From: Gavia stellata | Taxonomy: Eukaryota; Chordata; Aves; Gaviiformes; Gaviidae | Reading direction: 5' to 3' | NCBI RefSeq assembly: GCF_030936135.1 | Contig: NC_082597.1 | Coordinates: 42,787,095-42,851,094 of the forward strand | Length of the DNA: 64,000 nucleotides | In this document: in pieces, positions 44,872 to 49,300 of the stretch | Numbering within the stretch: the first letter of the stretch is position 1 | How the letters are laid out: each line of letters begins with the position of its first letter | Position numbers and translations under genes: made by a program | Notes under the pieces: model-generated | Seen by the model: the letters and a program-made list of their open reading frames with translations, nothing else | Told to the model about the DNA's origin: nothing | Databases searched by the model: none

Positions 44872-45256
44872 AATAAAATACATTAAAATAAAGTTACAGT
44901 ACATCATGTCTCCTAGAAGTCCCATCACAGCAAAGGATCCTTTCCAAGGTTCATAAATAATAGGTTTGAAATGCTTCTCGGCACCGAGGGCGGCAAAGTA
45001 GCAGCAGCAGCAGCTAGCTGGGGTTCGGGTTGTGGAGCTGCTTCTCTCCCGTCTCCCTGCAGCTCTGGCATTTGCCCAGTTTTTGATCAACTGAAGTACG
45101 TCCGCAACGAGCGCGCTCAGTCCCGCTTCCCCGAGGCGCTCCGTTAACTTAACCTGCAATAAGACAGCACAGCACAAACGGCAGCCGGTGAGTCGAGGGA
45201 GGAGAGCCCGCAGCAGTTTTCCGCGCCGGGAGCCGCCTCCAGCCCGGGGCACCCGC

Positions 45257-45283
45257 GGGGCCGGGGCCGGGGCCGGGCGGGGG
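45257..45283 (+). other. Potential G-quadruplex motif, non-transcript strand
   Basis: Five runs of three or more G (257-260, 263-266, 269-272, 275-277, 279-283, each plus 45,000) are separated by CC, CC, CC and C. This satisfies the usual G3+ N1-7 rule with very short loops. The transcript strand of PHLDA1 is the C-rich complement here. Confidence 0.85.
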
Positions 45284-45302
45284 AGCGCGGCTGGGCCGCC
45301 GC

Positions 45303-45354
45303 GGGGGCAGGAGCGGAGCGGTCCCGGGGGCAGGAGCGGAGCGGAGCGGAGCGG
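45303..45354. repeat. GGAGC pentamer tandem repeat
   Basis: A GGGGGCAGGAGCGGAGCGG unit at the left recurs after GTCCC, and the second copy is extended by further GGAGC units, so the array is a compound pentamer repeat inside the PHLDA1 intron. It is likely to vary in length between individuals. Confidence 0.85.
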
Positions 45355-45368
45355 CGGCCCTACCTGCG

Positions 45369-45824
45369 CTAGGCGGAGTTGGAGGCGCTGCGGAGGCGCG
45401 GGCCGTGGGGCTGCGCCAGGTGCTGCTGCTTCTGGCGGGTGGAGCGGACAGCGAGGATGGCCTGGCGGTTCTTGTACTGCACCATCTGCAGCGTGATCGC
45501 CGCGTTCCAGCCCTGCTCCTGCGCGCACCGAAAGTCGATCTCCTTCCCCTCGGCCATCACCACCGTGAAGTACACGTACTTGCCCTTCCGCTCCACGCAG
45601 TCCACCGTCTTCATATTGGAGAAGTGCAGCTCCTTGATCTTGGCCGCCGGCTCGGCCGGCAGCGGCGGCGGCTGCTGCTGCGGCGGCGGCTGCTGCTTGG
45701 GGGGGATGAGGAGCAGCCCCTCCTCGGTGAGGATGCAGCGCTTCTTCTTCCAGAGCTGCAGGAGCCCGTCGCTCCTCTTCTCCAGCACGCCCTCCTTCAC
45801 CGCCTTGCAGCCGCTCTCCAGCAT
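45369..45824 (-). CDS. PHLDA1: Pleckstrin homology-like domain family A member 1 (TDAG51), AUG-initiated form
   Basis: The 151-residue protein starts MLESGCKAVKEGVLEKRSDG and reads through a PH fold at about residues 11-127 (LLQLWKKK, ILTEEGLLLIPPK, IKELHFSNMKTVDCVERKG, YVYFTVVMAEGKEIDFRC, GWNAAITLQMVQYKNRQAIL). A Pro/Gln loop (residues 41-56) interrupts the early strands, where mammals carry a polyglutamine tract. The start has A at -3 and aligns with the internal methionine of the mammalian protein. PHLDA1 binds membrane phosphoinositides through its PH domain and is known as an inducible regulator of apoptosis and Akt signalling. The C-terminus is short: after TRQKQQH only about 18 residues remain, ending RLRSASNSA, whereas the human protein has a long PQ/PH-rich stretch before a similar RSTSNSA end. 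The CDS is in one exon. The frame also continues open upstream. Confidence 0.96.
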   Translation of the reverse strand: MLESGCKAVKEGVLEKRSDGLLQLWKKKRCILTEEGLLLIPPKQQPPPQQQPPPLPAEPAAKIKELHFSNMKTVDCVERKGKYVYFTVVMAEGKEIDFRCAQEQGWNAAITLQMVQYKNRQAILAVRSTRQKQQHLAQPHGPRLRSASNSA

Positions 45825-46262
45825 CCTTCTCGCATGGGCCGGCGGGGCCGGGAGCCTCCGCCCGCAGGGGCTGGGGTCGGGGGGCAGCCGGCACCAGCCG
45901 ATGACTCTCCGCCCCGCGCCGGCTCCGAGGCGGAGGGCCGGGAGCGCCCCGGCCCGCAGGAAGCGGAGCGGCGTGGCGGGCGGCGGCGGGCGCGCTGCCG
46001 GTGCGGGCGGCTGTGGCGGCCGGCTTTTCCCTCCCCTCGGCTTTTGAAGGCGCCTTTCCCACCCCAGAGTGACACCCAGCGGAAAAGGCGGCTCCGCCCG
46101 CCGGCAGCGGGGAAGCCCAGCGCCGCCGAGGTGCGGAGCGAGGCGGCTGCCCCGCCCGGCGGAGCTGGGGGCTGCGCTGCCCGGCGGCAGCTCGGCCGGC
46201 CCGGCCGCCCCTCGGGGCAGGAGCGGGCAGCACCGCCGGCCTCCGGCCCCCCACCGCTCCTC
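45825..46262 (-). CDS. PHLDA1: Possible non-AUG N-terminal extension of PHLDA1
   Basis: Upstream of the PHLDA1 AUG the same frame is open for 146 codons to a TAG at 46263-46265 and contains no ATG. Its translation includes LPRCRRAEPPFPLGVTLGW (roughly 46,059-46,115), then basic and Pro-rich sequence, and ends PAHARR next to MLES. As I remember it, the long human and mouse PHLDA1 form has a closely similar in-frame segment (FPPRCGRQEPPFPLGVTRGW) near its N-terminus and ends SYAGR before MLESS. In mammals this form begins with an AUG, but here the aligned position (about 46,158-46,160) is GCC. CTG codons at 46188-46190 (G at -3) and 46218-46220 are possible starts. Alternatives are an unseen upstream exon supplying an AUG, or nucleotide-level conservation of a 5' UTR. 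Confidence 0.5.
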
Positions 46263-46305
46263 CTAAAGCGCGGTGCCGCAGACAGACCACGAAGGTGCGC
46301 CGGGA

Positions 46306-46316
46306 GGGGTTTCCCC
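46306..46316. promoter_or_regulatory. kappaB-like palindromic site near the PHLDA1 5' end
   Basis: GGGGTTTCCCC is a near-palindrome that fits the NF-kappaB consensus GGGRNNYYCC. It lies about 480 bp upstream of the PHLDA1 AUG, inside the CpG island. A single match of this length in GC-rich DNA can arise by chance. Confidence 0.3.
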
Positions 46317-46350
46317 GCCGCGTTTAGCCAGCGGTAGGCTCACACAGGGA

Positions 46351-49300
46351 TTAAAGGCACAATTGACTCGGTCGGCAGCCCTCACCTGCTCTCAGCGGGG
46401 TGTTCCTGCAGTGTTTGCTTGGAACACATTTCCTCAGCCTTCCCCCGTGGGGAACAACAGCGAAGGGCCTCCCTTCTGGGTGTTCGCGATTCAACTCCAG
46501 TAAAACCGGTGCCAATTTGCAGCAACACCCTGATACTTAAACGATCATCGCGCCATTAAACAAAGGAGACAGCCTCACCACAACCTAGTACAACAGCTTT
46601 ACCCCTACACCCTTTCGCATTGCTCTCTGTGCTGGGAAGCAGCAGCTTCTAGTGTATATATAAAATACATCTTTACTCTCTGCAGCAGTTTGAGTAATGT
46701 CTAAAGAAAGCACATAGCCCTATCCCTTCCCAAAGGAAACACTAGAACCTCAGTGCTTGGAAATTTTAAAAGCAGACTAGGAAAAAAACCCAAACAAACC
46801 AAACTGGCGAACAGCTAGGACCACTTTTCTTGTTATTCTGCTTTGTTGCCACACATTTGCTTATTGTTTGGATTCTCCCCCGAGGTTAGCTTTTGAATTC
46901 ATTTATTTGAGTAGAAAAGTAAAGTGACCTAAGGTTAATATTAAACTATTTATTTCAAAGTCCTTTGATGTATTAGATGTAAATCAAAAGCCCACGTAAC
47001 TACATTGGCATTGTCAGCCAAATTTGAACTGAATGCTGGAAATTTCATACTGCCTTTTAGAGCACTGGGTTTTTGAAACATGTATTTAATATGGCCATAA
47101 AAAACCCTCCTCACAGTAATCTTGGCAGCTAGGAAGCAGGTCATGCTGTAGCATAGGTCAGTGGGAGCACATGAGAAAAAAAATTCAGTATTAATGATAG
47201 CTTTAAAAGAGTTTATCTCTGATAACATTTTAAAAAGGATTTCCTCTTATCTTTTACTCTTGAAGTTCAAAGTTAATTTTGATAAATTGTTGAGAGGTAA
47301 ACAATTAAGGTAATAAAGGTAATTAAAATTATTTAGCTGGTTTACCTTTCCTGAGGTAACTGGAAGACACTGAAATCAATATCAAAGGTAACTTGCTAGC
47401 CACAAACTAAACAAAAAAAAGATCAATATCTTAAACATCCATTTATCTAAAGAATAGTTCCTTCTCCTCTTTTAAGAGGCACATGCTAGTTTCCAAAAGA
47501 TGTGAACACCACTCACGGTTGTCTCAATCTGCAGTTCATTGCTATTTGAACCTAAATTCCCCAGCAAAAATATCTGCCTCTTCAGCTGCTGGTGCACATA
47601 CAAGGCGCCTCACACATGGCTTGAGCAAGGTAAGAGAACTCCTGCCTTTTTACCTGGTGTGTTTTGCATCTACTCCTGATTGTGTCACATGAGCAAAGAC
47701 TTCATGTTGAAATGGTCAAACTAGAACATAAACTGGTTAAAATGTATTCATCTATACCAAACAATTACAATACTGAGTTCATGTAAGGCATAGGACATTG
47801 AACTAAACCTGCAGAAGACTTATTTCTAATAATTCACCTGCAGAGTTTTGGTTGCTGCTCCCTTGCTGTAAGTGAATAGCCATTTGATTCCAAGTAAATG
47901 CACTAACCAGTAGTATGGAAACTTGCCTTAGACTTAGGAGTCCCACATGTTATTCTGCAACAAGCATTCAAGACCTTCCCCCCCCCGCCCCGAACACTGT
48001 GCTGTAACACTTAAGGACATTAACACATAATCTATAGCTATATATTTCAATGTGAGGGTTCTTTTTGCTTGTTCTCAGTGCTAATAGTAATTTGTAATTA
48101 ATCAAAGGAAAAAAGTGAGAAAAATGTGGAAGGCCGAAGATTTTCATCAAATATACAGGAGAAAGGGACTAAATTCATTCTACTCCAGCCTTCCATGGCA
48201 TAAAGTTCTCCAAAGTGTTGAATGTCAGATTTTTTAACCTGACTCTGAACACCAATGGACATACTCTGCTAATGTATGGACTCACAACAACAGCTGTTTA
48301 TTCCCAGTAGAATTCACCTAAGAATGCGATCAGAAATAAACATGCAAAACATCTATTTAAACTTGTACTCTGTAAGCCAACAAATATTAACAGCCTTTTA
48401 AAATACGCTACATTTGACAAAAACAGCAGGTCTAGTCTCCTAGTTTTGACTGAGTAAGATGAAATACTGACAGTTTCATGGTAAAAGAACAAAGATATCC
48501 CAATTTAATTGTGCAGAATTTGCTAGTGAAGGATAACAAACTCCATTCTCCTAGATGGAAGTCAAAACTGAACTTCCAGAAATGTTTTTTACATTAGTAT
48601 TTCAAAAACCACATTCATAGTTAAGCACACTACATTATCCCACTGAGATTTTACTTTACTTTTCTTTAAAGATATATTTAAACTACTGCAATTATATTAA
48701 ATGTTCCATGTCTGCTACCTTTATTGAAGTTTCACTAAATACTACGCAGGTTCTGCAGCTGTTCCTCCTGAAATACCTGATGTGCAGATGCCTCCTACTG
48801 TCAAACCTGAAAACTACAACCTGAAAAAACTGTCTAATCCTTGAAAATATCTACATTTTTCCTTTTCTGTGTTCAAAGTTGCTATTGTTAACAGAAATGT
48901 TTGTTTGCTAAATACACTGGTCTCCTATATCATAAGCTCCCTAACTCAGGCTCTAGTAGCTGAAATTTTGTATGTGTAACCTTAATAAAGAGTAATTACG
49001 GTAAGAGTAATTAGTGTTCTTTTTAAACCCTGAGGCAACTTAAACATTGTTTTGGGAAGCCACCACCAAAGACTAAAACGCCCATAATTTTACTAGTACT
49101 CTCCTGGATAATGAATCTGCAGACAGCAGCTTAACACCAACTATCAACTATTAGTTTCAAAGGGATGATAAAACTATCCTGAGTGACAACCCTTAAACAT
49201 CATTATTCCTGCCATTACTGAGAAGTGGCTAAAACAGGAAAAAGGGCTAAGAGGGAAACCTAAAGGAAGTATGAGCTGGTCATCACTAGACAGAAGGAAA

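Follow-up and report, generated by a model that had tools for sequence, protein, structure and literature searches.

Directly upstream of the PHLDA1 start codon of Gavia stellata lies a long open reading frame without any ATG that resembles in part the N-terminal extension of the long mammalian form of the protein. This raises the question whether the bird translates the stretch from a non-AUG codon or whether it belongs to the 5′ leader. The gene lies on the minus strand of the window, by which we mean the whole stretch of 64,000 nucleotides that was analysed, and its start comprises the following features:

45369..45824, minus strand: PHLDA1 short-form coding sequence (CDS), 151 codons and a stop codon
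45825..46262, minus strand: ATG-free open stretch in frame with the PHLDA1 CDS, 146 codons, most likely 5′ leader (called the extension below)
45797-45835, minus strand: upstream open reading frame (uORF) starting at an out-of-frame ATG (45833-45835), 12 codons, overlapping the main AUG

The main AUG (45824-45822, minus strand) has A at -3 and C at +4, and its frame ends with the stop codon at 45371-45369. An in-frame TAG at 46263-46265 bounds the extension frame upstream, and there is no in-frame ATG across its 146 codons. The ATG of the uORF lies 11 nt upstream of the main AUG in a weak context (C at both -3 and +4), and the uORF could lower initiation at the main AUG. We take the gene to be PHLDA1 on the strength of a provisional human sequence. 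Its CDS scores 15.7 bits against the Pfam PH model, which is under the cut-off of 25.1 bits, and related PH-domain loci were found at two places in the same genome (C30 and C17; E up to 0.1, 58% and 46% identity), which are presumably PHLDA2 and PHLDA3. Within the bird CDS, the proline-glutamine and proline-histidine tracts are almost missing, and the C-terminus, SASNSA, resembles STSNSA of the provisional human protein. The CDS has only 151 codons, compared to the 260 residues given for the human short form (PMC8882599).

An earlier note on this DNA had pointed to the 146 open in-frame codons without ATG. These are present, but as evidence they say little, since such a stretch is expected by chance at a GC content of 81%. 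All three minus-strand frames are free of stop codons here, and 44% of 5000 sequences simulated with a first-order Markov model were open and ATG-free. The openness of the extension frame is thus explained by chance and is no evidence for coding. Among forkhead open reading frames (ORFs) of the same genome, 3 of 18 have at least 146 ATG-free codons before the first Met. In these three (L016, L020 and L032), 146 to 212 in-frame ATG-free codons precede the first Met, and these stretches are probably leader as well.

The resemblance to the mammalian protein was measured against the 141 residues of the human long-form extension in its provisional sequence. The extension frame reached a score of 122 and the five other frames scored 45 to 54. 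Of 2000 residue shuffles none exceeded 99, and of 2000 simulations at the DNA level, each taken at the best of its three frames, none exceeded 97. The bulk of the similarity lies within a single block of 25 codons (46112-46038):

46038..46112, minus strand: conserved block, codons 51-75, PRCRRAEPPFPLGVTLGWERRLQKP, resembling the provisional mammalian long form from residue 17 on
46040..46054, minus strand: 15 nt inside the block, 13 of which agree with a published primer for mammalian PHLDA1

Codons 51-68 of the extension frame encode PRCRRAEPPFPLGVTLGW, and the motif EPPFPLGVT.GW..QK is shared, in the same frame, with the long form (401 aa) of mammalian PHLDA1/TDAG51, presumably the same gene. 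Downstream of the block the similarity is weak, and it is best in the extension frame by both local and global alignment (reached by 33 and 10 of 2000 simulations, respectively). Upstream of the block no significant alignment to the provisional human extension was found, the local score being reached by 367 and the global score by 74 of 1000 shuffles. The mammal-like extension described in the earlier note therefore holds, relative to the provisional human sequence, for codons 51-75 and weakly for the part downstream of them, where the residues stand in the same frame as in the mammalian long form, but not for the part upstream. Its further suggestion that the mammalian AUG aligns with a GCC in the bird lacks a firm basis; since nothing aligns significantly upstream of the block, no bird codon can be matched to that AUG. 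The distance from the block to the main AUG differs between the bird and the provisional human sequence by a whole number of codons, and this, together with the frame-specific downstream similarity, mildly favours coding in the past or present. A literature search for the peptide PPFPLGVT found no paper.

Three published observations agree with the provisional human sequence. The two human forms are given as 401 or 260 residues (PMC8882599), and the difference of 141 equals the length of the provisional extension. An in-frame deletion in PHLDA1 has been numbered Gln204 (PMC9609193), a position that lies within the polyglutamine tract of the long form in its provisional sequence. Moreover, each of two published primers (PMC8882599; PMC8589446, PrimerBank 83977458c1) has one frame in which it can be read as a peptide of the provisional sequence, RWPIQK in one case and LRVSLL in the other. 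Since all three fit, we regard the provisional sequence as corroborated to the extent of these published passages. The primers are termed mouse in PMC8882599, while the passage in PMC8589446 names no species, and we call them mammalian; as they were used for RT-qPCR in the former study, the mammalian mRNA evidently includes the extension region. At the DNA level, the match of the forward primer within the block has a score of 20, which 3 of 1000 simulations attained within the extension. However, the window contains a slightly better match at another place (score 22), and nothing in the extension meaningfully matches the reverse primer (score 13), so that the primer DNA evidence is weak by itself. 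Among the matches listed (40 of 46 and 15 of 150), a search for other published PHLDA1 oligonucleotides in the extension gave one primer pair only.

Base composition by codon position speaks against coding. In GC-rich coding DNA of this genome, the scarce A/T bases fall mostly on positions 1 and 2, and our test statistic was the share of A/T bases that fall on position 3. A or T occupies positions 1, 2 and 3 in 27, 33 and 22 of the 146 extension codons, and in 54, 91 and 3 of the 151 codons of the PHLDA1 CDS. The position-3 share is thus 22/82 (0.268) for the extension, which is compatible with one third (p 0.24), 7/22 (0.32) for the block and 3/148 (0.02) for the CDS; correspondingly, GC by codon position is flat in the extension (.82/.77/.85) and steep in the CDS (.64/.39/.98). 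Controls came from 18 motif-bearing forkhead ORFs of the same genome, found in 22 loci scanned out of 30. For coding sequence we pooled 50-codon bins with a GC content of at least 0.74, for which 12 genes qualified, the other six having no such bin; for leaders we took the 438 nt upstream of the first Met of all 18 (one shorter), seven of which had a GC content of at least 0.73. The twelve GC-rich coding sets gave shares of 0.015-0.196 and the seven GC-rich leaders 0.27-0.42, which places the extension at the edge of the leader controls and outside the pooled coding sets. Among 38 overlapping coding windows of 146 codons (GC at least 0.74), the highest share was 0.19 and none reached 0.268, which was equalled or exceeded in 3 of 68 GC-rich coding windows of 50 codons. 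Compared with the two most leader-like GC-rich coding controls, the extension gave p values of 0.065 and 0.069. Since five forkhead N-terminal segments of lower GC content (0.40-0.70) also had leader-like shares (0.255-0.389), the test is informative at high GC only. Overall, the extension is closer in composition to untranslated leaders than to coding sequence with the same GC content, and this composition is still compatible with weak or recently lost translation.

Upstream of the block, the extension frame contains only two near-cognate codons, both CTG, and these lie where the earlier note had placed them. A third CTG lies within the block, and one of the upstream pair within a local repeat:

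46218..46220, minus strand: CTG, codon 15, C at -3 and C at +4
46188..46190, minus strand: CTG, codon 25, G at -3 and C at +4; of the two upstream CTGs the better candidate
46065..46067, minus strand: CTG, codon 66, A at -3 and G at +4, the best CTG context of the frame
46133..46192: tandem repeat of a 25-bp unit, 2.3 copies, containing the CTG at 46188-46190

As the CTG at 46065-46067 is itself inside the block, it cannot account for the conservation of EPPFPLGVT. Initiation at CUG, which the note had proposed, was not borne out by the leader-like composition and by a better upstream CTG that sits in a tandem repeat and has C at +4.

The block is the A/T-richest patch of the leader. When Trp is excluded, 7 of its 24 third positions are A or T. 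The CDS, without Met and Trp, has only 3 such positions among 145 (Fisher p 4.5e-5), and the remainder of the extension has 15 among 119, from which the block differs only suggestively (p 0.059). This use of A/T at third positions suggests a constraint on nucleotides. Because the composition is leader-like, the similarity is concentrated in the block and the better upstream CTG belongs to a tandem repeat, we favour, with evenly balanced confidence, a conserved CpG-island 5′ leader segment whose mammalian counterpart is read as an extension beginning with AUG, the bird protein starting at 45824. The stretch would then be the CpG-island 5′ leader of bird PHLDA1, and a promoter-proximal segment in it may go back to the shared ancestor of birds and mammals and may, as judged from the peptide EPPFPLGVT, be maintained mainly through constraint on nucleotides. 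In mammals, the same segment would fall in an AUG-bearing reading frame and form the annotated beginning of the 401-residue protein, and in this bird the ribosome most likely begins at the AUG at 45824 to yield the 151-residue form. The force that maintains the block, the site of transcription start and the absence of translation upstream are points that we infer rather than observe. Conserved promoter-proximal leader segments occur in CpG-island genes, and the bird locus resembles them in having a short, A/T-richer conserved patch near the CDS. It differs in that no factor, promoter element or RNA family could be assigned to its block, which has no Rfam match (none up to E 1 over 45700-46700) and carries one ETS-like core on the other strand at 46079. 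If the segment is leader DNA, which we think likelier, peptide-level similarity upstream of a CpG-island AUG can stem from nucleotide conservation, and the question arises whether the mammalian long form is under selection at the protein level.

Alternatively, a long bird PHLDA1 might be made from a near-cognate codon, most plausibly the CUG at 46188-46190, and the short form by leaky scanning to the AUG, which we consider possible but unlikely. The in-frame amino-acid score of 122 against null maxima of 97-99, the weak frame-specific similarity also seen downstream of the block, the G that this CTG has at -3 and the freedom of the frame from ATG, with a lone out-of-frame ATG just before the main AUG, are all consistent with such a start. 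However, the composition is leader-like, the candidate codon has C at +4 and sits inside the repeat, and the region upstream of the block shows no significant similarity that would mark a conserved start. Furthermore, the predicted RNA fold of the leader is no stronger than that of shuffled sequences (z-score -0.02; 49 of 100 shuffles fold as well). N-terminal extensions with non-AUG starts are described for PTEN-L/M, c-MYC1, WT1 and FGF2 (PMC12045569), and the bird locus is like these in having an open, in-frame, ATG-free leader with CTGs upstream of the AUG form. The L, M and N forms of PTEN begin at CUG and AUU codons whose conservation extends over 52 eutherian species, and these proteoforms have been experimentally tested (PMC4892431), whereas bird PHLDA1 is known here from the DNA of one species. 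If the bird leader were very short, a CUG close to the cap would be a poor start, since mRNAs whose leaders do not exceed 40 nt are reported to use downstream starts more often (PMC13219423). No paper that treats PHLDA1 together with non-AUG initiation was found among the open-licence papers searched. It is doubtful that, in addition, the CUG-started extension already existed before birds and mammals diverged, with the mammalian AUG arising later to strengthen a leaky non-AUG start. If the stretch is translated, the locus would show an AUG-started extension growing out of a non-AUG one, and a stress-response regulator would have a second form in birds.

An ancestral extension started by AUG, like the mammalian one, could also have lost this codon in the bird lineage, its relic frame now being retained only where it also acts as a DNA element. 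This would fit the strong similarity of the block, the weak but frame-specific similarity downstream, the part upstream that does not align and the leader-like composition of a frame without AUG; decay, however, would be invisible, as all three minus frames are open to the extent that chance allows, and we rate this history as rather improbable. Splicing of an upstream exon with an ordinary AUG into the extension frame is very improbable. The frame itself lacks an AUG and ATGs occur farther upstream (46429, 46548, 46556, 46620 and 46670), but a strict scan of 45700-47000 on the minus strand, which can miss weak acceptors, found no polypyrimidine-AG acceptor inside the frame and only one at 46788. 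That the resemblance is a chance product of GC-rich composition is hardly credible: long ATG-free frames do precede other genes and the primer DNA matches are not distinctive, but neither shuffles nor simulations reached the score of the extension frame, the only frame to score so high, and the provisional human protein is corroborated by the published primers as far as these can be read.

The two mammalian forms are given as 29.7 and 45 kDa in PMC8882599, whose passages on them state lengths of 401 or 260 residues and mention three splice variants, but no alternative starts. Endogenous mouse TDAG51 was reported at 40 kDa (PMC10875272), which falls between these two sizes. A genome-wide search for a second copy of the extension gave 16 matches at E up to 10, none convincing apart from the extension itself (E 1.8e-86; next match 0.286), and single scans of the genome-contig and the viral-contig collections for PHLDA1 of other vertebrates found no relative. 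At least 150 matches to the beta-keratin family, in several clusters, mark the genome as that of a bird. Inspection of the sequences by eye revealed no PHLDA1-like extension at the paralogue loci. At the C17 paralogue (L012, plus strand), a repetitive open stretch rich in Arg, Ser and Gly lies right before the start of the PH-domain ORF. Finally, an antisense open frame of 381 codons (45192-46337, plus strand) spans the entire start of the PHLDA1 gene, which is unsurprising in a CpG island with codons ending in G or C.
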